Shown one piece after another: positions 27,855-61,470 of a DNA stretch of 64,000 nucleotides (position 1 is its first letter; each line of letters opens with the position of its first letter). The stretch is taken from IMG/VR virus record IMGVR_UViG_3300013101_000005, positions 34,632 to 98,631 of that record; one strand, written 5' to 3'. The position numbers were made by a program, and so were the translations under genes. The notes beneath the pieces are model-generated. The model was not told the origin of the DNA, did no database searches, and was given only the letters and a program-made list of their open reading frames with translations. This stretch comes from a virus.

Positions 27855-30800
27855 ATGGCCCAAAGTTCAGACACAGCACGCTTTGTAATTACTGGTGAAT
27901 TTAGAAGCGGAGAAATGATAAAGCAATTTGAGGCTTCTATTGGTCAGATGTCTAAAATGGCAAGTGCAAAACTTGGTAAAGTAGGCAAAGAGGTAAGTGC
28001 TTCCGTAGAGAGTGGAATGGTTAAAGGAGCCGAAGCTGCTGGCGGTAAGATGGCTAAAGGAATGCAGAAGGTAAAAACAGAAGCTAAGGGTGCTGGTAAG
28101 AATATTGATGATATGGGCAACAAGATGGATAAGGTTAATGCAGACATATTTACTGCGGTAAAACGTGTCTTATTGTGGGGTACTGCTTCAAGGTTAATCT
28201 ATAACACTTATGGCAAAATAGCTGATGCTGTAAAAGATGTTGTAGAGTTAAATAGAATTCTTGTAAACATTGAAAAAATTCGTCCTGCTGGACTAGATGT
28301 AGATATTATAAGCGAAGATATTTTAGCTAAAGCTAAAAAGTATGGTGTTGCTTTTGCTGAAATTGGCGAAACTCAAAGAACATTCTTCCAGCAAGGTTTT
28401 AAAACAGCGGAAGTTATCAAATTAACAGAGTCACAGTTGTTAGCTGTTACTGCTGCTGGGTTAACCGCTGGTGAAGCCATGGAACTACTTGTTAGTTCTA
28501 TGACTGTTTTTAATATTTCTGCTCAACGTTCCATTACTATTGTTGATAAATTACAAAATGTCCAAGCTAACTATGCGGTGTCTACTCAAGATCTTGCTTC
28601 TGCTATGCGAAGGGTTGGTCCTGTCGCTCAAGAACTTGGTGGAGATATTGATCACTTAATTGGACTTATAACTACACTAAAAGAGTCTACTCGTAAATCT
28701 GGTGAATTTATTGGTACTGCTCTTACTACAATCTTTTCTCGTACTATAACAAGTGTTGGTGCAAGTCAATTACGTAGAATTGGTGTAGATATTAATGAGA
28801 CAGCACAGATATTACGTCCTATAAAAGATATTTTTGATGAAGTAGGCAGAGCATGGGCAAACCTTACTGATCAAGAAAGGATTAGTACTGCGTTTGCTCT
28901 TGGTGCTAGACGTAGATATCCCCAAGTTATTGCTTTGTTTGAAGATTATGCAAAAGCATTAGAAGTGGCGGCTCTTTCAACAAACTCCTTTGGTGCTGCT
29001 CTTATAGCACAGCAAAAAGAAGTGCAATCAGTATCTAGGCAGATGTCTATTGCTACTGAATCAGCTAAACAAGCTGGTATTGCTTTTGTTAAGGCTTTCT
29101 CTTTTTCTGGTAGTATTGAATCAGATTTTAAAAAAATAGCAAAAGCTATACAAGATTTTAATAATTTTGTAAAAAAATCAGCTAGACCTCTAGCAAATAT
29201 GGCTAAATCTCTGGCCTTTTTTGGTACCGTTGCTATTTTAAATGTAAGTCTAGGGGTGTTAGCAAAGAGGATAAGTTGGGTAGGGGTTAGGGCTTTGTTT
29301 GTGGCACCTGCTCTTACTGCCATGTCTGCACAAATGACAATAGCAAGTAGATCCGCTTTTATCTTAGGGAAAGCCATAAATCTTATTGGAGGATTCCTCC
29401 CTTCTATTGTAATTGCAACGATTGCCTTTACAGCACTTGAATACAAAATTAACCGAAATAATAATGCAATTGGGGATTTAAGCGAAGGGTTCCGTGGATT
29501 TTCTGAAGAATCTGAAAGTGTAAAAAGAACTTTAAATGAATATCTTAGTATAGTAAAACAATTTACTCAGGTAGAAGGCCCAAAATCTTTGGTTGATTTT
29601 CTTGGTGCTGATTTTAAAGGAGGTAAAGATAGTATACTTGGTTATATGAAAGCAATAGAAGGAGTTGGGGAAGATTTAGAGGGGGCTAATTTTGAGAAGT
29701 TTAAACAAGCTATACTTGCTGTTCGTGGTCCTACTGCTTCTGTTGAAGAAGCCTTTTATGATCTTTCTCAAGTTATAGGATTTCTTCAAGCTACTAGTTC
29801 TGGATTCAGAAAAGAATTAGAAGAAATGTCTACTCAAGCTAATACCTCTCGTAATATTATTACAGACCTTGCGGTGAGTTTAGCCTCTTTGTTTACAGAA
29901 GGGTCAAGATTCTCATCTGAGGATTTCTTAACAGAAGCCTTTGGTAAAGGAACCCTTGATAATATAGATAAAAGAATACAAGATATTGCAAATGAAATAT
30001 CTAAAGCTGAAAATTCATTTCCTAAAATGTTGTACACAACAGTAGATGAAAGATCAGATTTTGCTGCTTTTCAAGATAGAGTATTTGATGAATTAGAAAA
30101 AGAGTTACTTGCTGGTAATGGAAAATTTGCAGAATTAGCAAGGGAAGGTGGGATTCATGGCACTCTGTTTTTAGATGCATACTTCGCCTCCTTAAGGGAA
30201 TCTATAAATGACTCTCAAGTGGAAGATCAACTTTCACTTTTACAAAGTATCCCTTTCTTTTTACCCCTGCTAATAAAAATAAAAAAACCAACAAAGGAAG
30301 AGTTAAATAAGGCATTTAAAGAAGGAGTTGAAGCTCTATCACCAGAAAACATTGAAAAGTTCTATTTAGACGAATATGGTAAGAAAGCAATAAATCTTCA
30401 AGACTTTATTATACAAACCGGAGATACTGCTGTTCTTGGTTCTATGGCTAAAGATTTAGCAGAGGCATATGATGTTGAATTACCCACTATATTTAAAAGA
30501 TTAGAAGATAGATCAAATAAATTTGGTGGGACTTTATTACAATTACAATTAAAAGTCAGAGCCCTATCTGGTAGTGCTGGTTTCTTAGCAGAAAACATGA
30601 CAACTACTTTTAAGAATTTTGTATTACATACACAAGATTCTGTAAAATTAGCAGAAAGTCTTAAACTTGCTGGTTCCTCCTCTTTATATCTAGGGGGGGC
30701 ATTAGCAAAATTAGACTTTAAAGCAGTTGGATCCCGCCTAAAAGCCTCATTAACTCAATTAGCAAAAGTTGATACTCTTGATGAACAAATAAAATCTTGG

Positions 30801-33800
30801 GAAAGAACAAGAGATGCTTATGAAGAATATTTAGTAGTATTAGAGAAAGATCCAAAGACAACGGGATTAAAAATTCAAGCAGCTATTAAAGAATCTGACA
30901 GATTAAGTCAGAAAATTGCTGATCTTACTGTTGAGCAGGAATTCCTTGCGACACAAACAGAAGAACTAAATAAAACAATTGAAAAAGAAGCGGCAGCTTA
31001 TAAGAACCTGTTTACTTATTTACAGAACATAGAAAATGCTTATGGGATACAAAAAATACAGATACAAGCAAATACTGCTGCTAGAAAAAAAGAAATAAAG
31101 GCAATGGAGCAATACCAACGTGCTCTAAACAAAATAGCAATACAAACAGAAAAATTAGATGTAGGGGGCTCTTTCGCTGAGGATCTTGCCTTAACTGTAA
31201 AGGGCATTACAAAAGATTATCAAGAACAAGCCAAAGCAATTCTTCAAAATATAGCTTTAGATGAGAACAGAACACGTAGTTTAAAAGATACCTTAAAGGG
31301 GTATCATGAGGCTCTTGGGGCAAATAATGCCTTTTTGTTGATATCTAAAAGAATCCTTGGTGTAGATCTTTCTGTAAATAAAACTTATCAAGATGCAGAC
31401 CGTCTACTAAATAATACAAATATTAAAAGAACAGTACAGTACACACATACCTTACGGTTACTTGATTTAAATGAAAAAAATGCAAAATCGCTTGCTAAAT
31501 CAAACAATAATTTAGATCAACAAAAGGCTATTCAAAAAGCAAACCTTGCTGTAATAAACTCAGTAGTTAGTGCAATTGAAGATGCGGCAAAAATTTCCAT
31601 AGAGTTTTCTAGAAATATTGCAGAAGTATCTGCAAGTTTTGCAAGATTAGATAGTGGTGGTAGTTTTGCAAAAGAGCTAAGAATTGAACAAGCATTAATA
31701 AGAAGAGAAACTGAACTAACAACAAAAGAAATAGATGCTCAAATAGCAAAGATAAAGCAAGCAGTTCTCTTAAAACAAAACGAATTAGGTCTAGCTAATG
31801 ATCTACTAAAATCTGATTTCGGTAGAACTGCTACTGTAAAACAGTTGCAACAAGCCTTTGAAGAAATGGACTTAGTACAAAAAGATGGGCTTAATGCAAT
31901 ACAATTACAAGCTGCTGGTCAGTTAGAGGGGTTAGCTGCACAGATAAAAAATCTTAAAGCTACCGAAGACAACCAACTTGCCCTTTCTGAATTAAACAAT
32001 CTTCTTGCAATATCCAACTCATTACATGAAGCAAATTTAGCTTCTATAGATAATTACGCTTCTGGTATCCAAGCCTCAATTGCAGCAACAAGAGAATTTA
32101 ATAGTGAGTCTGCTCAAATTCTTAAAAATTTCCAATTACTTAATAAAGCTGGGGAATTTGGTAGACAATTAAAAGTTGAACTTGGTGGAATAACTAAAGA
32201 ATACAAAATACAAAAAGAAGCAATTGCAGCTACTATTGAATTAACAAAAATAAGATTAAAGAAACAACAGGAAACCGCTGGGTTTTATGACGATGTATTA
32301 CTAGCTGAATTGTCTACTAAAGGTCTTTTAGAAGAGCAATTAAATATTAGAACAGACATTGGTGATGTACAAAAATCCCAACTAAACTCAATTGCTATTG
32401 CTGGTCAACAAGAGCTAGAATCCCTACAAATTCAGAGTAAGCAACTAGACAAACAAAAAGAATATGATTCAGAACTTGAACGGATGAATACTCTTTTAAA
32501 ATTAGCGGCTCGAACTCAATCTGATATTAATGATCTTGCCGCAGGATATGCTAATGCCTTCGGTGATGTTATAAAGAATATTGGTGAAATAATAAATGAG
32601 CGTGGTAGTTTAAGAACAATCCTACAGCCCTTTGCTGATGCCTATATAACAAGTGTCACAAAGAGGCTGTCTACTTCTCTACAAACCTATTTTGATGATG
32701 TATTGGAATCTTCTGTTGGTGGTCAACTAAAAGAACTAGAAGACCAGCTAAAGAAGAAATCAGAGGCAGAACCATACGATCTTGGCGGCGATATCATCCA
32801 ACGTAAGTTGATTGATGGTGCTATTGTTACTGGGAATATTATTAGTGCAAAGATTAAGGAAGCTGTTAGTAATATAATACTAACTCAAGGTGAAGTTGTA
32901 CAAGTAAAGGTAGAAATACCAGAGATTCCCCAGTTAAAACTGGAAGTTCCTGTTTTACCTGCACTTAAAATAGAGGCTCCTGATATCCCTCCTCTATCTT
33001 TTTCTATTCCAGAATTACCTAAACTGGAAATTGAAATTCCTGTTCTTCCTGTTTTAAAGGTGGATCTCCCAGAGATACCACAACTTACTTTTGCTATTCC
33101 TGTCTTTCCTAAATTGCAAGTGGAGGTACCGGACTTACCTGCTCTACAAGTGGACATGCCAAACATACCTCCATTAACAATAGAAATACCAGACTTCCCT
33201 AAATTACAAGTGGAAATACCAGACTTACCTACCTTGTCTGTAGCAATCCCTGATATTCCTTCTGTAACAGTAGAGGTCCCTAGAATACCTCAACTGGATT
33301 TAGTGGTCCCAGATTTACCTACATTAAAGGTGGATGTTCCTGTTGTACCTGATCTAGTTATTCCTGAATTAGAAGAATTTGGTATACGTGTTTTTGAAGT
33401 ACCTACTATAGATGTTAAAATTCCAGAAATACCTCAGGTAACAGTAGCTGTACCAGAATTTCCACAATTAACAATAGCAGTTCCTGAGTTACCTAAGGTT
33501 CTTGTGGATATTCCTAACATACCTCCTGTAGTTGTACCGGACATACCTCCATTAAATATAGTTGTGCCTGACTTACCTACTCTGACTGTTGATGCACCAA
33601 AACTATATAAAATAGCTGTGGAGATCCCCTCGATACCCCAGTTAAAACTATTAGTTCCAGAATTACCTACATTAAGTATTAAAGTTCCTATAATACCTGA
33701 ATTAGAGGCCCCTGTAATACCTCAGTTACAATTAGAGGTTCCTGAGTTACCCAAGGTTGTTGTAGATATTCCTAATATACCTCCTGTTGTGGTACCAGTG

Positions 33801-35915
33801 ATCCCGCCGTTAACAATAACGGTTCCTGTACTACCTACATTAACTGTGGATATACCTAATATTCCACAACTGGAACTTCCTAGGATTCCACAATTACAAC
33901 TGAAAGTACCAGAATTACCTACATTAAGTATTAAAGTTCCTCTAATACCAGAACTGGTAGCCCCTGTAATACCTCAGTTGGAGTTAAAAGTTCCAGAGTT
34001 ACCTAAGGTTGTCGTGGACATTCCTAATATTCCTCCTGTAGTTGTACCGGACATACCTCCGTTAAATATAGTTGTTCCTGCTTTACCTACATTAGCTGTA
34101 GCACTTCCTGATATACCTACAGTAACTGTGGAGATCCCTACAATTCCACAGTTACAACTACAAGTTCCAGACTTGCCTACATTAAGTATTAAAGTTCCTG
34201 TAATACCAGAACTGGTAGCCCCTGTAATACCTCAGTTACAATTAAAAGTTCCTGAATTACCTAAAGTTGTCGTAGATATCCCTAATATTCCTACTGTAGT
34301 TGTGCCGGATATTCCACCACTAACAATAATTGTTCCTGAACTTCCTACTTTAGTTGTGCCAATACCGGAAATACCTCAAGTAACTATGGTAGTGCCTGTA
34401 ATACCCCCCATGGAAATTGTTGTACCGGAATTACCAACAGTAGTGTTTTCTGTTCCTGATATACCAGAACTATCTATTGCTGTACCTTATATTCCTGAAA
34501 GTATAAAATTAGATGCCCTAGAAGCGGCACAATTAATATCAGCTACTTTGCTTTCTGGTGCGCAAGTTATATATACAAAAATAGCTGAAGCTATAAAAAC
34601 AGCAACTTCCATTACTATTGCTGTTCAAGATTCTGTAAAGTTAGATGCTTTTGAAGCTCAAATACTATTATTAGATGCCCACAGACAAGGTGCTGAAATA
34701 ATGAAAGCAAAAATTATTGAAGCAGTACAATTCTTTACTTTAAATGCTGGTGAAGGTGGGGAAGAAGTTAGTGTAGATACTAATGGTGTACAACAAGCCA
34801 TAACGCAGGGTGCTATAACTGGAGCAAATGCTATTGGCATTAGTACAAATGAAGCGGCAGATAAAATTTCTACCACAAATTTTGGTATTCCTGATACTAT
34901 AACTTTAGATGCTGCTAATGCTAAGTTACAGCTTATAGAAGGGCACACCATTGGTGCTGAGATTGCAAAAATTAAACTTATTGAAGCATTCTCTTCTTTT
35001 AAAATAGCAGACACAGCAATACCAGATTCAAAAGAAGACTCACCAGACCTTTCACAAGAAGCTAGAGTGGCTACTACTACTCTTGTAGAAGATCAAGATT
35101 TTGGTAAATTCACTATAGAACAGGATCAGAAGTCTTTAGCTTATATAAATAATGTATCTGCTAAAATTTTAGATGCTCATACACAAGGTGCTCAGATTCT
35201 TTATAATAAAATAGTAGAAGCTCATACTACTTTTGCTCCTGGTACGGGACAACAAGCCTTACCACAAGTGGCAACAGTAGGTGGAACTACAGACACTTTT
35301 AATACAACTCCTATAACAGATGGTTTAACAGGAGTAACAACTGGGGTAGGACTATTAAATGTTAGTCAGCAAGAACAAACCGAAGAAACAGAATTAACTA
35401 CTGAAGAAATGGCAAAGCAAGTAAATAAACAACGCTTGACTATTTCTGCAATTCAAGGTCTTGGCGTTATCATGGGGAACCTTGTTGGTGGTGGTGGGAT
35501 TGGTTCTGGAATAGGAGCCTCTATTGGTGGTATTGCTGGTTCTTTCTTAGGACCTGTTGGTGGAGCAGTTGGCTCAGTTGTCGGTGGGATACTTGGTGGA
35601 TTATTTGATAGTGCTCCTGAAGTAGAGGAACCAGAGCCTTTCCCTTCAACTATATATGAAGCTAATTCAGATGCTCTTGCTAAGAATACAGAAGCTCTAA
35701 TAAGAAATTCTCAAAACTTCGACTTCATGAAAAAATTATTAAATGCTCCTGCTAACTTTATTCAACCTGCTTTTGCTGATGTTGGTGGAGGAGCAAACAT
35801 AACTGTTCAAATAAATGCTCCTGTGGGCAATGAGAATGCCGTAGGTAAGGCTGTGTACGATGCTGTTTCAAAGGTGTACTCTAATGATTATAGACGTATT
35901 GGGAGGCGTGGATAA
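27855..35915 (+). CDS. Tape measure protein with decapeptide repeat domain
   Basis: A 2,686-residue tape measure that sets tail length and helps DNA cross the host envelope. Residues 1-500 match the TP901-type core (AAGLTAGEAMELLVSSMTVF, LIGLITTLKESTRKSGEFIG, FALGARRRYPQVIALF). About 445-530 hold hydrophobic, membrane-like segments. Residues 550-1680 are mostly helical and contain three related blocks spaced about 165 residues apart, each with a (G/A)GxF-(A/G)-x-(D/E/Q)-L motif. About 1685-2214 is a Val-Pro-rich decapeptide repeat, flanked by five copies of a helical motif. Near 2535-2580 is a Gly-rich hydrophobic stretch (GSGIGASIGGIAGSFLGPVG), then a short C-terminal domain. It is the longest gene and follows the chaperones directly. 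Confidence 0.92.
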   Translation: MAQSSDTARFVITGEFRSGEMIKQFEASIGQMSKMASAKLGKVGKEVSASVESGMVKGAEAAGGKMAKGMQKVKTEAKGAGKNIDDMGNKMDKVNADIFTAVKRVLLWGTASRLIYNTYGKIADAVKDVVELNRILVNIEKIRPAGLDVDIISEDILAKAKKYGVAFAEIGETQRTFFQQGFKTAEVIKLTESQLLAVTAAGLTAGEAMELLVSSMTVFNISAQRSITIVDKLQNVQANYAVSTQDLASAMRRVGPVAQELGGDIDHLIGLITTLKESTRKSGEFIGTALTTIFSRTITSVGASQLRRIGVDINETAQILRPIKDIFDEVGRAWANLTDQERISTAFALGARRRYPQVIALFEDYAKALEVAALSTNSFGAALIAQQKEVQSVSRQMSIATESAKQAGIAFVKAFSFSGSIESDFKKIAKAIQDFNNFVKKSARPLANMAKSLAFFGTVAILNVSLGVLAKRISWVGVRALFVAPALTAMSAQMTIASRSAFILGKAINLIGGFLPSIVIATIAFTALEYKINRNNNAIGDLSEGFRGFSEESESVKRTLNEYLSIVKQFTQVEGPKSLVDFLGADFKGGKDSILGYMKAIEGVGEDLEGANFEKFKQAILAVRGPTASVEEAFYDLSQVIGFLQATSSGFRKELEEMSTQANTSRNIITDLAVSLASLFTEGSRFSSEDFLTEAFGKGTLDNIDKRIQDIANEISKAENSFPKMLYTTVDERSDFAAFQDRVFDELEKELLAGNGKFAELAREGGIHGTLFLDAYFASLRESINDSQVEDQLSLLQSIPFFLPLLIKIKKPTKEELNKAFKEGVEALSPENIEKFYLDEYGKKAINLQDFIIQTGDTAVLGSMAKDLAEAYDVELPTIFKRLEDRSNKFGGTLLQLQLKVRALSGSAGFLAENMTTTFKNFVLHTQDSVKLAESLKLAGSSSLYLGGALAKLDFKAVGSRLKASLTQLAKVDTLDEQIKSWERTRDAYEEYLVVLEKDPKTTGLKIQAAIKESDRLSQKIADLTVEQEFLATQTEELNKTIEKEAAAYKNLFTYLQNIENAYGIQKIQIQANTAARKKEIKAMEQYQRALNKIAIQTEKLDVGGSFAEDLALTVKGITKDYQEQAKAILQNIALDENRTRSLKDTLKGYHEALGANNAFLLISKRILGVDLSVNKTYQDADRLLNNTNIKRTVQYTHTLRLLDLNEKNAKSLAKSNNNLDQQKAIQKANLAVINSVVSAIEDAAKISIEFSRNIAEVSASFARLDSGGSFAKELRIEQALIRRETELTTKEIDAQIAKIKQAVLLKQNELGLANDLLKSDFGRTATVKQLQQAFEEMDLVQKDGLNAIQLQAAGQLEGLAAQIKNLKATEDNQLALSELNNLLAISNSLHEANLASIDNYASGIQASIAATREFNSESAQILKNFQLLNKAGEFGRQLKVELGGITKEYKIQKEAIAATIELTKIRLKKQQETAGFYDDVLLAELSTKGLLEEQLNIRTDIGDVQKSQLNSIAIAGQQELESLQIQSKQLDKQKEYDSELERMNTLLKLAARTQSDINDLAAGYANAFGDVIKNIGEIINERGSLRTILQPFADAYITSVTKRLSTSLQTYFDDVLESSVGGQLKELEDQLKKKSEAEPYDLGGDIIQRKLIDGAIVTGNIISAKIKEAVSNIILTQGEVVQVKVEIPEIPQLKLEVPVLPALKIEAPDIPPLSFSIPELPKLEIEIPVLPVLKVDLPEIPQLTFAIPVFPKLQVEVPDLPALQVDMPNIPPLTIEIPDFPKLQVEIPDLPTLSVAIPDIPSVTVEVPRIPQLDLVVPDLPTLKVDVPVVPDLVIPELEEFGIRVFEVPTIDVKIPEIPQVTVAVPEFPQLTIAVPELPKVLVDIPNIPPVVVPDIPPLNIVVPDLPTLTVDAPKLYKIAVEIPSIPQLKLLVPELPTLSIKVPIIPELEAPVIPQLQLEVPELPKVVVDIPNIPPVVVPVIPPLTITVPVLPTLTVDIPNIPQLELPRIPQLQLKVPELPTLSIKVPLIPELVAPVIPQLELKVPELPKVVVDIPNIPPVVVPDIPPLNIVVPALPTLAVALPDIPTVTVEIPTIPQLQLQVPDLPTLSIKVPVIPELVAPVIPQLQLKVPELPKVVVDIPNIPTVVVPDIPPLTIIVPELPTLVVPIPEIPQVTMVVPVIPPMEIVVPELPTVVFSVPDIPELSIAVPYIPESIKLDALEAAQLISATLLSGAQVIYTKIAEAIKTATSITIAVQDSVKLDAFEAQILLLDAHRQGAEIMKAKIIEAVQFFTLNAGEGGEEVSVDTNGVQQAITQGAITGANAIGISTNEAADKISTTNFGIPDTITLDAANAKLQLIEGHTIGAEIAKIKLIEAFSSFKIADTAIPDSKEDSPDLSQEARVATTTLVEDQDFGKFTIEQDQKSLAYINNVSAKILDAHTQGAQILYNKIVEAHTTFAPGTGQQALPQVATVGGTTDTFNTTPITDGLTGVTTGVGLLNVSQQEQTEETELTTEEMAKQVNKQRLTISAIQGLGVIMGNLVGGGGIGSGIGASIGGIAGSFLGPVGGAVGSVVGGILGGLFDSAPEVEEPEPFPSTIYEANSDALAKNTEALIRNSQNFDFMKKLLNAPANFIQPAFADVGGGANITVQINAPVGNENAVGKAVYDAVSKVYSNDYRRIGRRG
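31120..32520 (+). repeat. Three long helical repeat blocks in the tape measure
   Basis: Three related coding blocks of about 165 codons lie in tandem. Each carries a marker segment: DVGGSFAEDL, DSGGSFAKEL and KAGEFGRQLK (near 31,160, 31,650 and 32,150). Each is followed by a charged helix such as GITKDYQEQAKAIL or GITKEYKIQKEAI and by a Leu-rich helical tail. They look like old internal duplications that lengthened the ruler; DNA identity is low. Boundaries are approximate. Confidence 0.65.
32908..34498 (+). repeat. About 50 degenerate Val-Pro-x-Leu/Ile-Pro decapeptide repeats
   Basis: About 530 codons encode the pattern (V/I)P-x-(I/L)P-x-(L/V)-x-(I/V)-x, mostly every 10 residues with some 8-residue units (IPELVAPV, IPPVVVPD). 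Pro occurs about every fifth residue, between alternating hydrophobic strand-forming residues. A higher-order unit of 84-86 residues repeats three times, beginning near 33,632, 33,885 and 34,143, with segments VPELPKVVVDIPNIP and LPTLSIKVP kept almost unchanged, so recent copies arose by duplication of about 252-258 bases. It is not collagen-like. Confidence 0.9.
34500..35232 (+). repeat. Helical motif repeats flanking the decapeptide region
   Basis: Four copies of a helical motif of about 35 residues follow the decapeptide region: KLDALEAAQLISATLLSGAQ then VIYTKIAEAI; KLDAFEAQILLLDAHRQGAE then IMKAKIIEAV; TLDAANAKLQLIEGHTIGAE then IAKIKLIEAF; and NNVSAKILDAHTQGAQILYN then KIVEAH. A fifth copy (IIQRKLIDGAIVTGNIISAK then IKEAV) lies just before the region, near 32,790-32,875. 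The common core is L-x3-x-GA-x-I-x3-KI-x-EA. Confidence 0.75.
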
Positions 35916-42655: not shown

Positions 42656-45600
42656 ATGAGTATTAAACACCACCAAGCAACAGTTTCCACAACTTTAAAA
42701 GAAGCTGGGGATAAAGTAGTCCAAAAACATGATTCTACTGTATCTGTTTATAGAACAAACTACTCTTTCCCTTCTAACGGAGCAGATTACTATGTGTTTA
42801 ATAGCTCCTTAGGTGGGGCTTCTGGCCCTTCCTTGGCTAGTCCTGATGACCCAAATATTGTTAGCTATGGAAATATAGGGAATCTCTTCATAGATTGGGA
42901 GGGCGGCGGTCCTGAGGCTTCGACCTCTTCTATATGGCAAACAATAATCCAAGGAATGGCTTGGGGGCTAAATGGTCCAGCAGCCCCTGTAGATGTTACA
43001 TTTAAACTTGTGTACAGTGGTGGAGTTATTTTAAGTACTGGTGCGTGGGGGTCATATGAAGACACCCCTTCTGGTAATTTGTCAACTGTTTTAATAGATG
43101 ATTGGGATCAAGACGGAACTTCTGTTGTTCAGACTAGAGTGGTTTCTCAAGAAGTAACTGGAGCAGGTTTTATAAATACAGGAGCTTTTGCTTTTAGATT
43201 ACGTTACTGGAATAGAAGTGATGCCCCACATCTAGTTTGTTTTATAAAGAGGGATGGTATAGATGATGATTTTGTTGTTATGGGGGCATCTACTTTATCC
43301 TCTGGTTATGTGCCTGTTAATGGAGAGACATATGCAGCAACAAAAACTGTTTTAGAAGATGTAGTATCTTGGAATATTGATAGAGCACATGATAATATTA
43401 CTACAGCAGATATTCTTTTATTTGTAGATGCAACCACATCCTCAAATGCATATGATCCTGAAACAGAATCCTTTGGTGATATACGTAAAGGGAACTATAT
43501 AGAAATAGAAGCTGGATATAATGGTGAACAAACAAAAAGATTTGTTGGTAATATATCTGGTAGTACTCAAATTTCTCGTGAAGCAGAGGGGGCATATGTA
43601 ACATTGCATTGTGAAAGTATCGAGGGATTTTTAATAGACTCAAAAAACTTTAATTATCCTAATAATGCAATGTATAGCTATGCTGAATACACAACAGATG
43701 CAAGTGCTTATTATGAACCAAATGGAATAAAGCGTCCAGTAGCCTTTGACCAATGGGGATTAACTAGAGCTATAAGGGCTGTTTCTCTTAATGCTGGTGT
43801 AGACGACTATTATTTAAATCAATATAGACAATTTTATGCAGAAAATGGTACAATAACAACATCAACAACAAAATTAATAAGAGATTTAAATATATTCATA
43901 TCACGAACTAACGTTCTGCCTGATATAAATGTTAATTTACCAGAACAAGAATATCTTTGGGTATACGATTTCGGACAAGACACAGCTTATGATATCATAA
44001 AAGATATATTATCAAAATATGGATACTATTTAAGTAGTCTTGGTGGTGGCGATTTTTGTGGTTCTTTTGAACTTATTGAAGTAGAGTCTCCTACAGATAT
44101 AATAACTAAAATAAACACAGGGCTATCAAGTAATTACGTAGAGGGAATCCCTACGGAATATGCTGAGGGGTTCCTTTCTACTAAAATGAAAGCAAGTACT
44201 TCTACTTTAGTTGTTAATTGGGCAGGGAGTGGTATGGCCCTGTTAATGGGAGTAGGCCCTTCTTTAGCTGATTCTATAGCTATAACATATAAAGTTAATG
44301 TGTCTGATGGAGATTGGACTAATGCTTATGGGTATACACATGATTTTACTACATACGCTACAAGATTTATTGATACAGAATATGTAAATAGTGATTACAA
44401 TATTTTTTCATATGAAAACATTAATGCTCCCTCAGGTGGTAACCCCTCAATATTCTCTATTATTTTTAGTATTGATGATGAGGGTAATCCAGTACCATTA
44501 CCATATGGTGACCATTTAATACGATTGTCTAAAACGGTAGCAGAGGAAGCTTTTTTTGAAGGTGTTTTGGGCTATGATTTTGGAGGGGATTCTTATAAAG
44601 AATATTCTACATATGATATAATTACAGCTTTTTCTGTAGAAAATAGTATTGCTGATATAAGGAATGATATAGTAGTTCTAGGTGCCCCAAGGGGTGGATT
44701 CTCTTTTGTAGCAGATGAGGATTCTATCGCAAATGTACAAGAAAAATATGTTACATCAAGAGCCGCAGATCCTAGATCTATTTATGACCCAACATATAAA
44801 TTCTATGTAGGACGTAGAAAACAATTTGTAATAGAAGATCCAACAATTGTTACACAAGAAAGAGCAGATTGGTTAGCTGTTCATGTATTAGAAAAGTATA
44901 GAACTACCTCTAATGTAGGAGCTATCTCTATCCCATGTGATCTTGGGTTACAAGTTTATGACCAAATAAATATAGAAGAAGTACAAACAGGTTCTATTGA
45001 CTCTGGCTCTGGGTTTTATGCAAATCAATTAGTTGAAACATACTCTAAAGAGGAATATTCCTTACAGATTTCCTATTTAAATCATTGGATTCCTCCATCA
45101 TTTAGAAGAAGGGAACAAATAACATTAAATGATATTAGAGATTATTTTAATAATAGCCCAATTGCCTTTGAGAGGCAAACAGTTCCAATATTAGATGTAA
45201 GAACAGGCTATGATCCTATGTCAGCAGAAGATGGTATATATATTGATTTTGAGTGGACATTACTGGTACCGGGTATTCATTCTCTTGAGTTATTTGATAC
45301 ACGTGGTGACCAAAGAATACCGTTATACCATGCTTCTGAAAACCCAAATGAGCTAGTGGCTGTCCCTTTCGTTGGTATATATGAGTACCCTGGTAAATAT
45401 AGAGCAAGGTGGGATGGGGTACATGAGGGGTATGATTTAAATAGTAAATTTGCAAATACAAATTATGCAGACGTATACTATACTCCAAGGGGGCATGGAT
45501 ACGGTGCTAGAGGGCAAGATACTGCTATTATAGATGAAGTTCATCCTATACAAATAGAAGACGGGGATTTTCGTGCTGCCAAAAGAGTATATTTTCCTTT

Positions 45601-47677
45601 ATACCCTGTAATAAAATTTCAACCAATATACCCAGAGCACAGTACTTTAAACAATGTATTAAATTTTGGGTCAGAAAGCGGTACTGGATATAGTGATGGT
45701 GTCCTTATTTCTCAAGGAGATAATTCTTCTTTTGATGTGCAACACTTTGATTTAGAAGAGAGACAAAAACTATATTGGAATTTTGATCAAGAACGGTTTG
45801 GGACAGCAACAGATCAAGCTAATTTTATGGCCCACACTTCTCATGCAACAGATGCAGCGTTTGCAGAAGATGTTGATAACGTATTTATCAGGGAACAAAG
45901 TAGAACAGAAGCATATCAATTAAATAATGACATAACGCATCGTGTAATGGCCTGTGACCCCAAAAGACCCTTTGCAGAACCAACAGATACTGCTGGGTAT
46001 GGTGGTATAAGAAGACGACCTGTTAATATGCCCATGATAGATGAAACTGTTGGGGTTAGAATGTTTGTTGATGGTGTTTATGATAAAGATAGACGGTATA
46101 ACATATGGACAGCTAACCTACATATAGATGTGTTAACCCATTATATAGATACTTGTACTTATAATATAACTCAATATAGGGCAAGGGATAGAGGGCAGGG
46201 GGGGATATTCACATATAATATTAATGAATCTGTTACAAGAAAATTTAATTACTTTTTTAGACAACCACTACATGATATTCCTTTAGTTAGTTTTAATTTA
46301 TCTAGACAAACAATACCTGTTAAATCTTGGACATTTTTACCAGGAATAGAAGATAGTACAACATCCACCTCCGTTATTTTTGAAACAGTATTAAAAGATC
46401 AAGAAATATCAATACAACAAGCTGCTTTTGATACTATAAATACAGATGCGGCTGGAATTTCTGGTGTTGGGGTCGGCTCTGTTTTTGCTATTCCTATAAA
46501 TAGAATGACAGGAACTTCCTTAGATGGTTTTAACTTTTTTAGAAATTCAGCAGTATCATATTCTATACTAGAAAGACTTCATTGGCAAGGTGATATGCCA
46601 TTATTTCTAAGAACTTCCTTTGTAAGAGATTGGGACCAAAGAGAATTCTGGGAATCTAATAGAGAGTGGGCTGGGGATTATATAGATAATATAACAGGGA
46701 ATACTTACTTGTATAGTTATACAGGAACTACCTATTATGATCGTAAAATTTATAATTCTATCGTTGTTTCTATTGAATATTTACTAATAGATAGACTTGG
46801 TAGGGGATATTATTCCAGTGCAAAAACAGACGAAGGTAGAGTCCTAGTAGGAAGAAGAAATGATATAGAATTTCATTCTGAATTGGGTAGAGAGTTGTGC
46901 AAGTATGTTAACAGGTGGGATCCTTATTTACCCTCTGCTTGTTACTTTGAAAGATCTCCATATTCATTTACACATACTGATTTTGGAGACAGTTATTTAA
47001 ATACTATTAGAAATCATGGTAATACAACATATACACCATATGATCCAGATTATGATGGATTAAATTTAACAACACAAATACACAGAGAAGTTCAAACAAA
47101 AACAACATCAGACGTTGTACAAGGTACCACGTTGTTCCCATTAGATTCTGTTGAAAGAGTAGTAAGACCTAGTATTATATCTTATCCTTGGTATGTATAT
47201 CCAGCGAATCTCCCTGATTTAAATACTAGTGAAAATGCTGATGGGGCTTTATTTGGATTTTTTGGTACACCAAATACCCATTTAAATTCAAAAGTATGGC
47301 ACGCTCATAGTGTCTCTGGTAATTTTCCAAGGGACCATACTAATGAACCAGTAGACCAAGTAGGGCCGTGGGGACTCCCTGTTTATATTTCAGGTGGTTT
47401 TACAAATAAAGTTTTATCAATAGTTAATCATTCTGGTAGATATGATGCTATATCTGAATTATCCCAATGCCCTATCTTAGGCTTGCCAAGGGATGGGCAC
47501 ACTTGGTCAAACTGGTATGTAAGAGAATGGAATAATTTAGGAGTACCAAACCCAACTCTAGATGATTCATATATAAGCGCAAGAAGTGGTTTGTACGCTT
47601 TACTAAAAAATGCACCAGTATTCACACTGGTTGGCGGCGGTAATTATACTTGTAATAATTTTACACTTAGTTTCTAA
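42656..47677 (+). CDS. Large tail-tip protein (putative hub or baseplate-like)
   Basis: A 1,673-residue beta-rich protein. About residues 230-340 (VVSWNIDRAHDNITTADILL, KGNYIEIEAGYNGEQTKRFV, EAEGAYVTLHCESIEGF) follow the pattern of hub proteins, in which a strand pair defines a frame and an interrupted barrel. The remainder is Tyr/Asp/Thr-rich with few Cys, like adsorption proteins. Position between minor tail proteins and a second giant suggests the central tip. No peptidase or muramidase motif was found. GAGG precedes the ATG. Confidence 0.5.
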   Translation: MSIKHHQATVSTTLKEAGDKVVQKHDSTVSVYRTNYSFPSNGADYYVFNSSLGGASGPSLASPDDPNIVSYGNIGNLFIDWEGGGPEASTSSIWQTIIQGMAWGLNGPAAPVDVTFKLVYSGGVILSTGAWGSYEDTPSGNLSTVLIDDWDQDGTSVVQTRVVSQEVTGAGFINTGAFAFRLRYWNRSDAPHLVCFIKRDGIDDDFVVMGASTLSSGYVPVNGETYAATKTVLEDVVSWNIDRAHDNITTADILLFVDATTSSNAYDPETESFGDIRKGNYIEIEAGYNGEQTKRFVGNISGSTQISREAEGAYVTLHCESIEGFLIDSKNFNYPNNAMYSYAEYTTDASAYYEPNGIKRPVAFDQWGLTRAIRAVSLNAGVDDYYLNQYRQFYAENGTITTSTTKLIRDLNIFISRTNVLPDINVNLPEQEYLWVYDFGQDTAYDIIKDILSKYGYYLSSLGGGDFCGSFELIEVESPTDIITKINTGLSSNYVEGIPTEYAEGFLSTKMKASTSTLVVNWAGSGMALLMGVGPSLADSIAITYKVNVSDGDWTNAYGYTHDFTTYATRFIDTEYVNSDYNIFSYENINAPSGGNPSIFSIIFSIDDEGNPVPLPYGDHLIRLSKTVAEEAFFEGVLGYDFGGDSYKEYSTYDIITAFSVENSIADIRNDIVVLGAPRGGFSFVADEDSIANVQEKYVTSRAADPRSIYDPTYKFYVGRRKQFVIEDPTIVTQERADWLAVHVLEKYRTTSNVGAISIPCDLGLQVYDQINIEEVQTGSIDSGSGFYANQLVETYSKEEYSLQISYLNHWIPPSFRRREQITLNDIRDYFNNSPIAFERQTVPILDVRTGYDPMSAEDGIYIDFEWTLLVPGIHSLELFDTRGDQRIPLYHASENPNELVAVPFVGIYEYPGKYRARWDGVHEGYDLNSKFANTNYADVYYTPRGHGYGARGQDTAIIDEVHPIQIEDGDFRAAKRVYFPLYPVIKFQPIYPEHSTLNNVLNFGSESGTGYSDGVLISQGDNSSFDVQHFDLEERQKLYWNFDQERFGTATDQANFMAHTSHATDAAFAEDVDNVFIREQSRTEAYQLNNDITHRVMACDPKRPFAEPTDTAGYGGIRRRPVNMPMIDETVGVRMFVDGVYDKDRRYNIWTANLHIDVLTHYIDTCTYNITQYRARDRGQGGIFTYNINESVTRKFNYFFRQPLHDIPLVSFNLSRQTIPVKSWTFLPGIEDSTTSTSVIFETVLKDQEISIQQAAFDTINTDAAGISGVGVGSVFAIPINRMTGTSLDGFNFFRNSAVSYSILERLHWQGDMPLFLRTSFVRDWDQREFWESNREWAGDYIDNITGNTYLYSYTGTTYYDRKIYNSIVVSIEYLLIDRLGRGYYSSAKTDEGRVLVGRRNDIEFHSELGRELCKYVNRWDPYLPSACYFERSPYSFTHTDFGDSYLNTIRNHGNTTYTPYDPDYDGLNLTTQIHREVQTKTTSDVVQGTTLFPLDSVERVVRPSIISYPWYVYPANLPDLNTSENADGALFGFFGTPNTHLNSKVWHAHSVSGNFPRDHTNEPVDQVGPWGLPVYISGGFTNKVLSIVNHSGRYDAISELSQCPILGLPRDGHTWSNWYVREWNNLGVPNPTLDDSYISARSGLYALLKNAPVFTLVGGGNYTCNNFTLSF

Positions 47678-47686
47678 GGGGTTAAT

Positions 47687-50600
47687 GTGAAAAAGACACA
47701 AAGGCAAGATGTTATAGATCAAATACGTGATTTATCAAAATCTCGTAAATCTGTATATATTAAGGATCTGAATATTCAAGGAATACATTTTGAAGAAACA
47801 ATACCAGATGACCAAGCAGAAGGCCAAGATAGTATTGTTAGGTGGAATAGAATAACTTATTATCAGGATAATTCTACACAACCATCAGAATCATTATTTG
47901 AAAACATAGACAACCTTATAAATCCTAATATAAATACAGATGATATAGTATCTTTATCTGGATTAAGTGATACAAATATAACATATCAAATAAACTCAAA
48001 ATACACCACAATTATAAAAACCCAAAAAACAATAACAGATACATTAACACTATCTGGTAAATGTTGGGCAACTCTATATATAAATAATACTTTAGTATTA
48101 ACGCATAAGTATGATCCTGAGATTGAAGGATCTATTACTACTGTTACTTCAATACCTATCCCTTTTCCTAGACAACAGGAAATAACAATTCAAATTTATG
48201 TGTATGGGCACCTGAATGATACTAATACTGAGACTATCTCTCTATCTGGTAGGGCCTTTAGTTTTATTGAATACAATAGACTAGAAACTGTTTTACCTCC
48301 GTTAAACCTTTTTGCTACAGATAACTTAATTAATACTGTAAAAGTATCTTGGGAACAACAACAAGGGACAATTGGACAAGGTGGTGGAGTTGAGGTTTGG
48401 GGGAAACAACAAGATATTGAGTCTGATTATGTGTTGTTAGGTAGAGTTCCTTACCCTTCAGAATTTTTTATGCATACAGAACAAATAGGAAGTTCTGGTC
48501 TTATATCCAATGCTACCTTACAGCGATATAATTTTTATGGTGACACAGAGCTTGGGGCAGCGGTACCGGATTCTGAATATACAGATGGGACAGGTCTTGT
48601 GGATTGGGGAGTAACTAATCCTGCATCAGGAGCAGGGCAATTCTATGTTAGTAATTCTAGTATACCTGGCCAAGAATATATGTTATCTTACAATGTTAAT
48701 TTAAAATATGATATACCATTTAATGAGGAAGTATCCTCAACACTAAGAGTACCAGCAGAGATAATAAATCTTAAATTACAAGATCCAATTCTATTTACGT
48801 ACAATAGTACATATACTCTAAAGGTTGATTCTGCTATAACACAACCAACCATACCCACAAGTGGACACATAGAGTGGGTTTGGGACTACGATCCAAATAT
48901 AACAGATGCCCAAGTCCAATGTATTGTTTACATAAGTGGTAGCCCTACTACTTTTACTGTAGATGCTGTAGAAGGTAGTTATATACATGAATTAACCTTT
49001 AGCCAAATTTATAATTATTATTTAGATCCATCATATATTGATGCTGAATTTAAAACAACAAATGCTTTAAGAAATTCTGATAGTGCAGATTCTGAGATCT
49101 ATTATCAAGGTACCAGTATACATTGTACTCATAGTGATCTAGCTTCTGGTGTTTTGGACTCTAAACCATTTACAGTTAAGCCTGATGAAGAACTTACTGT
49201 AGAAATATTAACTTCTGACGATTTTGGTGTATTTCAGCTAGGGGGGATTCTTTATACTCAGAAAGAAAATGGGGACCCTTCTGGTAATGTGCATTTAACA
49301 AATCTTAAAAAGACTAGACAAGGTACTTTATATAAGTATACAAAAACAATTAAGATCATAAACCCAGAAGCTAGAGTTGCCTTTCTTTCTTTGGGGATAA
49401 GTGCCCCAAACGAGAGTGGTTCTGGAGAAATAAAATTTCACCAAATTGATGTGCTAAAACTTGCAACAAAAAGCCTCCCAAGTGGAGCAGCTTATAGTTA
49501 CAAAATAAGAAATTACACAAGAACATATTCATTTTCTGAATTTACAGATCCGGTTGTTGGTTATGCTGCTAGAGAAATTTATTACTTAACATTAACTGCT
49601 GATACTGAGTATGTTTCTTCTTTTCAAAGTACTAAGATATATGCAAGGGCTACTTCCCCGTTGTCTTACATAGATGTTGAAACAGTTCCTCCTGATGGTG
49701 AGTATGTTATTCCTTTGCAAGAGGTAGGACATAGTTTAAACTTGGCTGATTATACTTTTGAATACAGACCTTTACTTAGTAATTGTGTTATTTTTGATAC
49801 ATTTGAAACAGATCGTGATTTACGAGAGAATCCTGATGCAAATGGTGGTCTAACCAATGGTTTTGAAACATACGAAAATTCCCCGGCAAGAATACCGGCT
49901 GTTTGGAGAATTGAAGGGCCAACTACACCCTATTTGTGGGCAGATAGTGTATATAAATTTTGGAATCCTGGTGATTCTGAATCTAATGCTTACAGCACTT
50001 TTATTCAATTCGATGACTATAACCGATATAAATACAAAGAGTATGATTTAACAAAAGTTTCTACATTTTATTCTGGTATTTTAGGGAATAGTGGTTATGG
50101 TGGGGCACATAACCAAAAAGATCCAAAAAATATGGATAAATTTAGCCTTGGTATGATACTTAGAATAGATGCCCATAGCCAAAATGTTGGAGAAAATAGT
50201 ATAATTACTAGATCTCCACAAATATACACATTACATGTGTACCCACACTCCACAAATGTAGTTAGGCTTGCCCTAGCTATCCGTGGTAATCAGTATAGCT
50301 GGCAAAATCCAGATAATGGTGATGTTGTTTTAATACATACTATGCCTGTAACAACAGATGCTGATACTTACTTTTATGTACACGCTTCTGCTGATTGTAA
50401 CGCACTAGATGACCCAACTAGAACTTACATGGCTGTGCATGAAGTATCCTTAGATACAGATGCTACAGTAGAAAATTTGTATTCTGACAATGTACTGATA
50501 AACAGTACTAGATCTGAATGGTGGAATTGGGAGGATGCTGATCAAGCCTTTTTGGGATTTTCGTCTGGTAGTGCTACTGGGGATTTTTGCACATTTACTG

Positions 50601-52855
50601 TAGATACTTTCTACCTTACTGCTAATATAATAGAAAAATCCATTATAGATACTATCATTTCTCCTTTAATATACGAAACAAGAAATCCATTTTACCCAAC
50701 ATATGGATACTCTACAGGAGAAGCATTTAGAGTAACAGCAGAGGCTCTTCCAATTACTGCTGCAATGGAGGATCAGAATGAAGGGGCAATCCCAGTAGAT
50801 ACAGATACGCTACGTGGAGAAATAACCTTAACTTCTGATTGGACAGAACCAGACGGTACTTGTTATATACTTAGAGAAGCATATACAATGTCTCAATTGG
50901 ATATAGATACTATATCGGATGAACAGCCTGGGCACACATATACAATAGTTAATAAAATTTATGCTGATATGACTTCCTTGTATGCTCCTGTAACTAATAT
51001 TAGATTTTCTAATGATAAAATAAACTGGAGTACTTGGAGAGGCTATGCAGGGAACATATTATACCCTTGGGATCTTATTCCTATATTTGGTGTCCCAACA
51101 GACACAGAAGAGGGGGGGGATAGGTACGTTTGGGCACAAACAGTAACTACAGTTGGTGTGTCTTCTGATTATGTATTAAAGGTCAACCATAAAGATCATA
51201 TTTTTTATAATCCTTTAGGTTCTGTTGGTGGCATAGAAAGTTGGAACTATGTGCCTGGTGTTGAGGGATGGAGTTTGTCTTTAAGTGGTGATGCTGAGTT
51301 TAATAATATATTTATTCGTGGTAGATCTGTGTTTGCTGGTAAAGTTATTGATAGCAAAAAAATGCGAGATCATAATATTGGTACACAACTAGGACCAGAA
51401 GGTTTTACAACAGATACAGATCAAGGTCCTAATACTATTTTTAAAAATATTACACATCTTACTTCTCCAGATGGTATTAATTATAATTCAGATATAGCAA
51501 TTGATCTAACCTCCAATCTACTATTTATACCTACTAGTCATGAGGGGAAACACCAATGTCAGTTTTATAAATTTAGTACCCATTTTCTTACTGGATACAG
51601 GGAAGTTGGACCAACCCACCCAAATTTAGATCCATATGCCCAAACACATATAGCTTTGTCTAAAGAATTTGTTTTTATTGCTGGTGGCCTAAAAATACGT
51701 AAGTATCATAAAGAACATATTACTAATAATTTTATTGATCATATTGCTGAATATGATTTAAATAAAACTTGTCAAGGAATACATGCAGCATATTCTGCAA
51801 ATGGTGAATTTAGATTATATGTTTTAAAAGCGGATAGAATAGGGATTTCGGCACGAACTGTCCTTTGGAATGTTCTTGATGAAGACCTTCAAGTTCTAAG
51901 TTATGCTTCAACAACCTTTCAAAGTAACCTTAGCTATCCAACATTTATGTCTAAAAGTTGGGATTGTAATGGTAAATATTTAGTATTTACTGATTATGAA
52001 AACAAGATATTTTCATACCCCCTTGGGTTTGATGGGCTATTCCCTGATACAAATCTTGATTCATTTAGAAACACAACTATAACTGGTGTTGTTGATCTTG
52101 GTTCTGTATTTAATGTTCATAAATGGTTAATGTCAAATAATCTTTCGCCTATATATGACTTTGCTACATATCATCTAACATACCATATAAATAAAATTTC
52201 AGGCATACGTATATTTAAAGACTCTTACCTTTTTTATACCACATACGGTACTTATAAATATAACCAATTTACTGGTCCAAATTACTTTCTTGAATTTATG
52301 TATAATGCTATAGGCACAGCGGAATGTGTTAGAGCAGAAGAAGGCACTGGTGTTACTTCTATATTATATATGTGTAATTTTCCTTCTCCTGAATATGGTC
52401 AAACGCAAACAGTAGGGCCGCATACCCCTCCTATTTTTACAGTAGCCCGCCCACAACTTAATGCTACTCAGGCTCAACTTTACAGTACTGGTATTAATAT
52501 GCAATTCAATACCTACAATAATTTTGCACCTTATGTGGACAATTATAATAGTCTTAATGGTGGTGGCGTAATTGATGGTGCTTTTGGGTTCACTTCCCCT
52601 ATGATTGTTGGGGATAAGCTGCATATAGCACATTGTAGTTCAACAATGGATGAGCCTTCCTCTTCTGTATATGTTTTTGATTTTGATGGTAGATCGTTGT
52701 CATTTAATAACCCAAGTGTTATTACATCATATTCCGATTTTCAAATGTGCTCTATGGTTTATGATGGAAAAAGCCACTATAAACTAATGGCTAAACACTA
52801 CAATTTAGGTGGTGGTAATTGGTTAAATAATCAGTTATATGTTGTAAAACATTAA
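47687..52855 (+). CDS. Very large tail fibre or tip protein
   Basis: A 1,722-residue protein starting at GTG after AAGGGG. An FN3-like domain is likely near residues 205-290 (PPLNLFATDNLINTVKVSWE, EVWGKQ), with a second such tract near 600 (AYSYKIRNYTRTYSF). The middle has jelly-roll-like strands. The last 500 residues have short repeated strand blocks compatible with a beta-propeller, which is inference. It ends the plus arm, and its stop overlaps the convergent minus gene by four bases. Probable receptor-binding part of the tail. Confidence 0.55.
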   Translation: MKKTQRQDVIDQIRDLSKSRKSVYIKDLNIQGIHFEETIPDDQAEGQDSIVRWNRITYYQDNSTQPSESLFENIDNLINPNINTDDIVSLSGLSDTNITYQINSKYTTIIKTQKTITDTLTLSGKCWATLYINNTLVLTHKYDPEIEGSITTVTSIPIPFPRQQEITIQIYVYGHLNDTNTETISLSGRAFSFIEYNRLETVLPPLNLFATDNLINTVKVSWEQQQGTIGQGGGVEVWGKQQDIESDYVLLGRVPYPSEFFMHTEQIGSSGLISNATLQRYNFYGDTELGAAVPDSEYTDGTGLVDWGVTNPASGAGQFYVSNSSIPGQEYMLSYNVNLKYDIPFNEEVSSTLRVPAEIINLKLQDPILFTYNSTYTLKVDSAITQPTIPTSGHIEWVWDYDPNITDAQVQCIVYISGSPTTFTVDAVEGSYIHELTFSQIYNYYLDPSYIDAEFKTTNALRNSDSADSEIYYQGTSIHCTHSDLASGVLDSKPFTVKPDEELTVEILTSDDFGVFQLGGILYTQKENGDPSGNVHLTNLKKTRQGTLYKYTKTIKIINPEARVAFLSLGISAPNESGSGEIKFHQIDVLKLATKSLPSGAAYSYKIRNYTRTYSFSEFTDPVVGYAAREIYYLTLTADTEYVSSFQSTKIYARATSPLSYIDVETVPPDGEYVIPLQEVGHSLNLADYTFEYRPLLSNCVIFDTFETDRDLRENPDANGGLTNGFETYENSPARIPAVWRIEGPTTPYLWADSVYKFWNPGDSESNAYSTFIQFDDYNRYKYKEYDLTKVSTFYSGILGNSGYGGAHNQKDPKNMDKFSLGMILRIDAHSQNVGENSIITRSPQIYTLHVYPHSTNVVRLALAIRGNQYSWQNPDNGDVVLIHTMPVTTDADTYFYVHASADCNALDDPTRTYMAVHEVSLDTDATVENLYSDNVLINSTRSEWWNWEDADQAFLGFSSGSATGDFCTFTVDTFYLTANIIEKSIIDTIISPLIYETRNPFYPTYGYSTGEAFRVTAEALPITAAMEDQNEGAIPVDTDTLRGEITLTSDWTEPDGTCYILREAYTMSQLDIDTISDEQPGHTYTIVNKIYADMTSLYAPVTNIRFSNDKINWSTWRGYAGNILYPWDLIPIFGVPTDTEEGGDRYVWAQTVTTVGVSSDYVLKVNHKDHIFYNPLGSVGGIESWNYVPGVEGWSLSLSGDAEFNNIFIRGRSVFAGKVIDSKKMRDHNIGTQLGPEGFTTDTDQGPNTIFKNITHLTSPDGINYNSDIAIDLTSNLLFIPTSHEGKHQCQFYKFSTHFLTGYREVGPTHPNLDPYAQTHIALSKEFVFIAGGLKIRKYHKEHITNNFIDHIAEYDLNKTCQGIHAAYSANGEFRLYVLKADRIGISARTVLWNVLDEDLQVLSYASTTFQSNLSYPTFMSKSWDCNGKYLVFTDYENKIFSYPLGFDGLFPDTNLDSFRNTTITGVVDLGSVFNVHKWLMSNNLSPIYDFATYHLTYHINKISGIRIFKDSYLFYTTYGTYKYNQFTGPNYFLEFMYNAIGTAECVRAEEGTGVTSILYMCNFPSPEYGQTQTVGPHTPPIFTVARPQLNATQAQLYSTGINMQFNTYNNFAPYVDNYNSLNGGGVIDGAFGFTSPMIVGDKLHIAHCSSTMDEPSSSVYVFDFDGRSLSFNNPSVITSYSDFQMCSMVYDGKSHYKLMAKHYNLGGGNWLNNQLYVVKH

Positions 52856-53273: not shown

Positions 53274-53903
53274 CTAAAAGTCTAAATCATCAAACACAAC
53301 TGGTATCTTTTTTTTAAAACTTTCAAGCATTGAAAGGGCAAGCACTCTTATTTGGGGGTGGGCATTTGTTGAACATCTCATTGTAAAGAAATGATGCCAT
53401 TGTCTGAGATTATACGTTATGACAATTTCTGTTTTAAGTTCTGTTGGTAGAACTCCTCTTGCCTCTTGGGGTGTCCATCCTAAATCTAATAACTTAAAAT
53501 AATACATTTCTGCATCTTTCATAGCTGCTTTCCATATTAAAATAGCCTCTTTACTTTTTTGTAAAAGATGCTCTGGAAATATTACAGTTATTTCTTTATC
53601 AAATTTTTCTTTACAGTAATTACAATATCTTGTGCTTTCCTGTGAGTATGCCGCTATTCTATGTCTAACTATCTCATGTGAAATACCCCTATCACAAACA
53701 ACACGTACTGTAACAGAAGCGTGTTCCAAAACAGAGTGGTGCTTATACTGATGGCATATCATATTTACAAAACGGATAGCACTATCTTCAGATATTTTAT
53801 CTTCGGATTTATAACAAGTCCGTCCTGCCTTCTCTACCTTTTTTAAGAGATCTAACCCATCAAATTCTTCCTCAAAATCCCAACCAGTAGTCACACATCT
53901 CAT
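53274..53903 (-). CDS. thyX: Flavin-dependent thymidylate synthase ThyX
   Basis: A 209-residue ThyX converting dUMP to dTMP with FAD, NADPH and methylenetetrahydrofolate. The diagnostic motif RHR-x7-S is complete (RHRIAAYSQES, Arg80-His81-Arg82...Ser90, then Arg92-Tyr93). The His-rich FAD tract KHHSVLEHASVT is upstream, and the C-terminal LRQWHHFFTMRC segment is typical. AGGAG precedes the start. With thymidine kinase it covers both de novo and salvage dTMP supply. Confidence 0.95.
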   Translation of the reverse strand: MRCVTTGWDFEEEFDGLDLLKKVEKAGRTCYKSEDKISEDSAIRFVNMICHQYKHHSVLEHASVTVRVVCDRGISHEIVRHRIAAYSQESTRYCNYCKEKFDKEITVIFPEHLLQKSKEAILIWKAAMKDAEMYYFKLLDLGWTPQEARGVLPTELKTEIVITYNLRQWHHFFTMRCSTNAHPQIRVLALSMLESFKKKIPVVFDDLDF

Positions 53904-53912
53904 AATATTCTC

Positions 53913-58073: not shown

Positions 58074-58081
58074 AACCACTC

Positions 58082-59938: not shown

Positions 59939-60299
59939 TTGATCTCCTTTTGAGTTCTCTGCTTATAAAGTTTGTAATGAGTTCCATCCATTCTTGGCTG
60001 GTAGCCAGCATATATATCTGCTTAGACCCTAGTTTACGCTCGTAGTGTAGCCACACATCTAAATTTTCTTTTTTAGCTTCCTCCAGAGTGTCTAATGCCC
60101 TGTAATAAAGCCCAGATTTAGGATACGTTTTCCTTGTTTTTAGTTCAACCAATGTTGAATATGAAACAGGCAATACTATATCCCCCGGTCTTGGTTCCCC
60201 AGCATCATTACTATTAATACGTCCACTACCCATATTTCTTGATGTCCCCATCCATTTTGCTATTTCTAATTCAAACTTTTTCCAAATTGTGTTTGACAT
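59922..60299 (-). CDS. PD-(D/E)XK-type nuclease, Holliday resolvase-like
   Basis: A 125-residue protein. The pattern E10...GD40-x11-E52-L-K54 (KFELEIAKW, GEPRPGDIVLP, VELKTRK) matches the PD-(D/E)XK fold, with Asp40, Glu52 and Lys54 as the likely catalytic set. Size and the opening Lys-Lys-Phe-Glu helix are like archaeal-type Holliday junction resolvases and other phage recombination nucleases. The ATG at 60299 follows GGAAAGG; the frame opens 18 bases earlier. It fits with the Rad52-like protein upstream. Confidence 0.75.
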   Translation of the reverse strand: MSNTIWKKFELEIAKWMGTSRNMGSGRINSNDAGEPRPGDIVLPVSYSTLVELKTRKTYPKSGLYYRALDTLEEAKKENLDVWLHYERKLGSKQIYMLATSQEWMELITNFISRELKRRSNGDSI

Positions 60300-60818: not shown

Positions 60819-60819
60819 A

Positions 60820-61461: not shown

Positions 61462-61470
61462 AGCACTCTC

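Follow-up and report, generated by a model that had tools for sequence, protein, structure and literature searches.

The window, i.e. the whole stretch of 64,000 nucleotides analysed here, belongs to an IMG/VR virus record of 98.6 kb and carries on its plus strand an uninterrupted single ORF of 2686 aa (27855..35915), which a first, sequence-only reading of this DNA had taken for a tape measure protein (TMP). Profile searches agree with this identity: PF10145 (PhageMin_Tail) matches with E=1.4e-26 and 94.1 bits, above the curated cutoff of 33.2, and nine PHROG tape measure families match as well, the best being phrog_4211 (E=3.1e-59). The protein also shows the traits of its class, namely a very long ORF located among the tail genes, a segment with a hydrophobic period of 103 degrees and a hydrophobic segment near the C-terminus. 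On these sequence grounds we assign the ORF as the TMP gene. Further 3', a tail-protein match is found at 40681. The region 42656-52855 (+) contains two adjoining ORFs of 1673 and 1722 aa without a PHROG or Pfam match at E 0.01, which by their position are probably tail tip or fibre proteins, and 53274-62838 (-), on the strand opposite to the structural genes, contains a cluster encoding thymidylate synthase, glycosyltransferase 9, a B12-type ribonucleotide reductase-like protein and a DnaB-like protein. The cues to the host conflict, the terminase resembling that of Microcystis phage MaeS and the TMP those of phages of Firmicutes.

Within the TMP (all features on the plus strand), the PhageMin_Tail core domain (PF10145; aa 159-346, 28329..28892) is the region common to 80 IMG/VR TMP loci that were collected with an N-domain profile. 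In the segment leading from the N-domain to the proline array described below, the part comprising aa 901-1430 (30555..32144) is collinear with L098 (2117 aa) and L099 (2092 aa), the nearest relatives found, whose N-domains are 41% and 31% identical to that of the window TMP and whose C-termini are similar. A helical module, M1 (aa 1644-1681, 32784..32897), which aligns with the modules M2-M5 and with a segment of L098, immediately precedes the array (aa 1688-2217, 32916..34505), delimited by pattern, periodicity and shuffles. Modules M2-M5 (at about aa 2218, 2262, 2350 and 2430; 34506..35264) follow it on the 3' side; their linkers carry single hPxxI motifs, and this stretch is mostly without counterpart in L098. 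The protein ends with a Gly-rich hydrophobic segment (about aa 2530-2585, 35442..35609), recognised from its sequence, homologous to the L098 C-terminus and putatively membrane-active, and with a conserved C-terminus (ITVQINAPVG..., 35610..35912) that aligns with both relatives.

The array takes up about 530 residues, a fifth of the length of the TMP, and its 52 hPxhP cores are in accord with the initial estimate of some 50 decapeptide repeats over such a length. The unit is h-P-p-h-P-p-h-p-h-p (h, hydrophobic; p, polar) with prolines at positions 2 and 5, i.e. 3 and 7 residues apart and not, as first described, at every fifth residue. Positions 4, 7 and 9 are V, I, L, M or F in 41/41 ten-residue units, positions 7 and 9 having had no part in defining the unit, and the polar positions are mostly D/E/V (3), Q/T/P/K (6), T/Q/S/K (8) and E/D/A/K (10). 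In 5,000 shuffles of the array residues, a mean of 6.1 and a maximum of 16 cores were obtained, against the 52 of the real sequence; outside the array the window TMP contains none. At the DNA level, all 32 matches of a two-unit pattern fall within the array, with none expected from shuffles. The 51 core spacings amount to 10 (41 times), 8 (eight times), 20 and 28 residues, all of them even, and the indels mostly consist in the loss of one hydrophobic-polar dipeptide. The first block comprises 14 strict decapeptides in succession (32916..33335). The second half (33480..34505) is built from a higher-order repeat of about 86 aa or 258 nt with 3.6 copies (starts of the four copies at 33480, 33738, 33990 and 34248), in which units of 10 and 8 residues are combined and a 10+10+8 superperiod is seen. 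The array is acidic and hydrophobic (GRAVY +0.71) and has a single glycine among 536 residues (0.2%). An elastic segment in the sense of elastin, as had been considered, is unlikely for a hydrophobic chain with so little glycine: glycine-containing VPGXG-type units are missing from the array, as is the Gly at every third residue of a collagen-like sequence.

Hydrophobicity spectra separate the array from the segment upstream of it. For aa 901-1430 the peak lies at 103 degrees (3.5 residues), the value of a coiled coil, whereas in the block of strict decapeptides it is found at 144 degrees (2.5 residues). Over the whole array a coherent period of 180 degrees is maintained, since every indel has an even number of residues and leaves the strand register intact. 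The array peaks are ~3 to 4 times the largest among 200 shuffles. It has to be considered that the number of independent indel events is small and that 8-residue units were duplicated as part of the higher-order repeat, which weakens the parity argument. As judged from the unit itself, a regular helix is incompatible with two prolines in every ten positions, and the natural reading would be an extended chain along which the hydrophobic residues line up in a single unbroken stripe. Both points, the non-helical nature of the array and the alternation of hydrophobic residues favouring an extended chain, had been anticipated in the sequence-only reading and are upheld by the spectra. Structure prediction, which that reading had named as a check, yielded no confident monomeric fold, and the array was free of helix in both AlphaFold2 runs. 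For aa 1640-2323 without alignment (pLDDT 37.6, pTM 0.30), short strands were placed on the hxhx parts and helices were confined to the flanking modules; when the copies of the array, aligned with one another, were supplied (pLDDT 44, pTM 0.14), no secondary structure was predicted. Both runs were done on monomers and at low confidence, and they cannot speak to oligomers.

A fold of the beta-solenoid or triple beta-helix type, located in the lumen or at the tip of the tail and with a coil of 28-30 residues (10+10+8 or 10+10+10), would account for the superperiod of the second half and for the strands placed periodically on hxhx in one of the two runs, and a C-terminal triple beta-helix has been proposed for the TMP of phage R4C (PMC10276861). 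However, these strands vanish once the self-alignment is supplied, the model in which they occur is of low confidence (pLDDT 38, pTM 0.30), and its best Foldseek match has a meaningless E=1.5. Two prolines per ten residues moreover cost backbone donors, and there is almost no glycine for turns; we regard such a fold as improbable.

To what extent is the array shared with other TMPs? A set of ten named phages with 11 protein entries was inspected (SPbeta c2, Slash, 949, phiL47, vB_BcoS-136, Geobacillus E3, Sundance, PJN02, MaeS, with the TMP gene picked by size and position, and Mammaliicoccus phi6255, represented by two genes). None of the 11 entries contains a proline array, at most two hPxhP cores being present in each. 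The giant TMPs of SPbeta, Slash and phage 949 share a homologous N-terminal domain with the window TMP (22-27% identity) but likewise have at most two cores and no array. The 80 IMG/VR loci were screened for proline density, and the best 30 by this measure reach at most two cores, their proline belonging to linkers that are short and unrelated. No core occurs in the three nearest relatives. Single-sequence IMG/VR scans with the TMP, the tail genes and the TMP C-terminus found no relatives, and a terminase scan returned one relative, on a contig without a TMP match. Taken literally, prediction gave no regular structure and relatives no conservation, the combination that the sequence-only reading had seen as speaking against it; but the unit is strongly conserved within the array, which argues for constraint.

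Window aa 96-1675 align with L098 323-1739, and 2386-2685 with L098 1812-2112, so that between the matching flanks about 710 aa in the window TMP stand against about 73 aa in L098. The array appears to be a lineage-specific insertion because L098 and L099 match the TMP on both sides of it and lack the array itself. From these alignments, the array and the extra helical modules (M1, M2-M5) are best read as a gain in this lineage, loss in the relatives being less likely. Only one contig carries the array, and repeats are prone to misassembly. A metagenomic assembly artefact is nevertheless very hard to credit: a single frame runs through the array, the copies differ by 19-40%, and both flanks are homologous to one and the same TMP.

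Pairwise comparison of the 86-aa copies gave dS values of 0.53-1.04 and dN/dS of 0.16-0.37 with 19-40% difference at the protein level, values that point to purifying selection between copies, and the first block is close to synonymous saturation (pS 0.67). This argues against a very recent neutral expansion, although the values may be biased by gene conversion and codon preference. Of the recent expansion suggested earlier, the lineage-specific presence and absence stands, whereas the recency is weakened by the dS of 0.5-1.0 and dN/dS of 0.16-0.37. A near-neutral expansion of a proline-containing linker without specific role would be in keeping with the lineage-specific occurrence, with the presence/absence pattern of psiM2 and psiM100 (see below), with the single IPDTI-like motifs between the helical modules, and with the likeness of the linkers VPYIPESIKLDA and GIPDTITLDA to the unit. 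The substitution values between the higher-order copies and the near-saturated first block speak against it, as do 1.6 kb without stop or frameshift and the 100% maintenance of the pattern at positions 4, 7 and 9. We consider it to have little likelihood.

The notion that no such domain belongs to the known tape measure families had to be abandoned, since the TMP of Methanobacterium phage psiM2 (ORF21, NC_001902), an archaeal virus, has 11 PKIEF-type pentapeptide units. In its record the gene is annotated as a TMP, direct repeats are noted, and an annotated transmembrane region follows the array. As in the window TMP, the array is interior, follows directly on a charged, probably helical stretch, has a mean of one hydrophobic residue per 2.5 residues (peak at 145 degrees) and is lineage-specific: the psiM100 TMP, 47% identical to that of psiM2, lacks it in the alignment. 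In both proteins the proline-periodic array lies between an upstream segment and a hydrophobic C-terminal part. On the other hand, the psiM2 array is about 60 aa long, nearly identical from unit to unit and charge-balanced, whereas that of the window consists of 52 diverged decapeptide units, extends over 530 aa, is acidic and is about ten times longer. BLASTP of the two TMPs aligns array to array with E=3e-6, and phrog_33360, which judging from its name, length and matches was probably built from psiM2 and psiM100, matches the window TMP only at aa about 1590-1741, across the array start and not over the whole protein (E 4e-4 to 7.7e-6); shared composition may lie behind both array matches.

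A scan of IMG/VR for hPxhx pentapeptides with charged positions returned 32 loci, psiM2 included. L304 is a clear TMP (phrog_339, E=1.2e-81) with a short ELPKI run, again contrary to the claim of absence from tape measure families. In L299, L324 and L325, MPKLE/MPKFE-type arrays were found and the phrog_33360 match is restricted to the array. Together with L312, L317, L326 and L327 these proteins have ~1120-1520 aa, some being truncated, and the number of MPKLE/MPKFE arrays varies between contigs; from their sequences, all seven are possibly TMPs of an undescribed group. Proline-periodic arrays, as far as sequences tell, recur in TMPs and come and go, and none of the others seen comes near the length of the one in the window.

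When all IMG/VR contigs were searched for three strict decapeptides, 23 loci were returned. The convincing long-ORF matches (L003, L008/L011, L018 and L024) represent a different large structural protein: its arrays (VPSIPNIQVD, VPEIPNIELI) have the same h-P-x-h-P-x-h-x-h-x unit as the window, but by PHROGs it is a non-TMP protein apart from an array-only match. In its N-terminal part it is similar to a protein encoded by a huge-phage genome of 595 kb. The five loci share a huge-phage-type architecture with a PKD-like N-terminus and VPxIPxIxh arrays, and in L011 and L018 the large array protein is preceded by two genes whose N-terminal parts are similar. The decapeptide scan of bacterial and archaeal genomes yielded 60 loci, almost all of them short, simple-repeat or probably wrong-strand, without a recognisable TMP, and array-only searches of PDB, Pfam and PHROG gave nothing useful. 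FFP and VPGVP arrays dominate among the matches listed for a relaxed four-unit scan. Many of the matches listed, L223 and L286 among them, are short phage proteins with PFFPPFFPFFPP arrays and a length of roughly 280-440 aa; in L223 and L286 the array is followed by a CVDGDTMILT-like sequence resembling a Hint/intein start. Elastin-like VPGVP/IPGVP arrays occur in virus proteins of 294-588 aa in L260 (1-1764, +), L219 (2875-3873, +) and L285, the first two without a PHROG match. Repeated LPPLPPDGGD motifs were seen in L207, a phrog_6651 internal virion protein, and L228. The collection scans required strict spacing, arrays of other spacing falling outside their scope.

What might the array do? 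Outside of phages, titin PEVK and periaxin are similarly proline-periodic, rich in V/E/K/L and extended, but these eukaryotic sequences are far less hydrophobic and considered largely disordered, and homology is not claimed. By analogy with them, the main rival reading holds the array to be a flexible or semi-extended tether, an entropic chain by which the C-terminal helical modules and the hydrophobic segment would exit from the tail tip and extend to or across the envelope, with the remaining TMP still in the tube. Its position between the upstream segment and the hydrophobic C-terminus, the annotated transmembrane region following the psiM2 array and the lack of structure in the AlphaFold2 run with self-alignment are consistent with this, as is the T5 TMP, whose C-terminal hydrophobic part is the first to exit and, as has been proposed, becomes inserted into the outer membrane (PMC10038345). 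However, with a GRAVY of +0.71 the array differs from the periaxin regions outside the hydrophobic one (-0.456 to -0.227; PMC7072810), its strict h/p pattern and dN/dS of 0.16-0.37 exceed what a mere spacer needs, and 52 units seem far beyond the needs of a tether. We judge the tether to be somewhat unlikely, if still to be reckoned with.

Instead, we favour, at a probability of roughly 40%, an extended, oligomeric amphipathic insertion that continues the TMP rod and lengthens the tail at about 3 angstrom per residue. TMPs fill the tail tube as parallel trimers in T5 (PMC10038345) and DT57C (PMC10713586) and as a hexamer in HFTV1 (PMC12494034), and beta segments have been proposed in the R4C TMP (PMC10276861). 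Shortening the TP901-1 TMP by 347 aa reduced the tail proportionally from 118 to 65 nm, or 1.5 angstrom per residue (PMC5099701). According to our proposal, the insertion lies in the C-terminal third of the TMP, preceded by the coiled-coil-like segment and followed by the hydrophobic domain of the C-terminus, and inside the tail the array would form an extended (beta/polyproline-II) amphipathic chain. Several copies in parallel would bury the hydrophobic stripe, and the rod would continue in non-helical form. The gain in tail length would then be about 3 angstrom per residue and not 1.5, i.e. about 166 nm vs 80 nm for 536 residues, and on ejection the array, like the remainder of the TMP, would exit before the DNA. 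We infer the oligomeric extended structure, the rise per residue and the effect on tail length; the array is probably a multi-stranded extended segment, and its length and constraint favour, but do not decide for, a structural role. Being distal, it might also have its place at the tail tip or adopt a compact fold, without a ruler role. A more specific version, which we put forward only as a doubtful possibility, is that in TMP trimers or hexamers the array would be a proline-laddered extended cable, different in structural class from the coiled coil, a 3-3-2-2 hydrophobic decad replacing the 3-4 heptad, and that the TMPs of psiM2 and others gained the same independently; tail length would then be bought at half the residues.

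A helical TMP, at 1.5 angstrom per residue, is believed to determine how long the tail becomes. Proline arrays of TMPs, present or absent between relatives, are on record for psiM2, for which no tail length was found in the literature searched, and are not discussed as a class in searchable papers. With this precedent, the class is not wholly new; the window array stands apart from that of psiM2 by its greater length and its decapeptide unit. A TMP with a non-helical fifth, together with array-free relatives, makes the rule testable, since the measured length of the tail should reveal which quantity the ruler registers: the number of residues, the length as a helix or the contour length.
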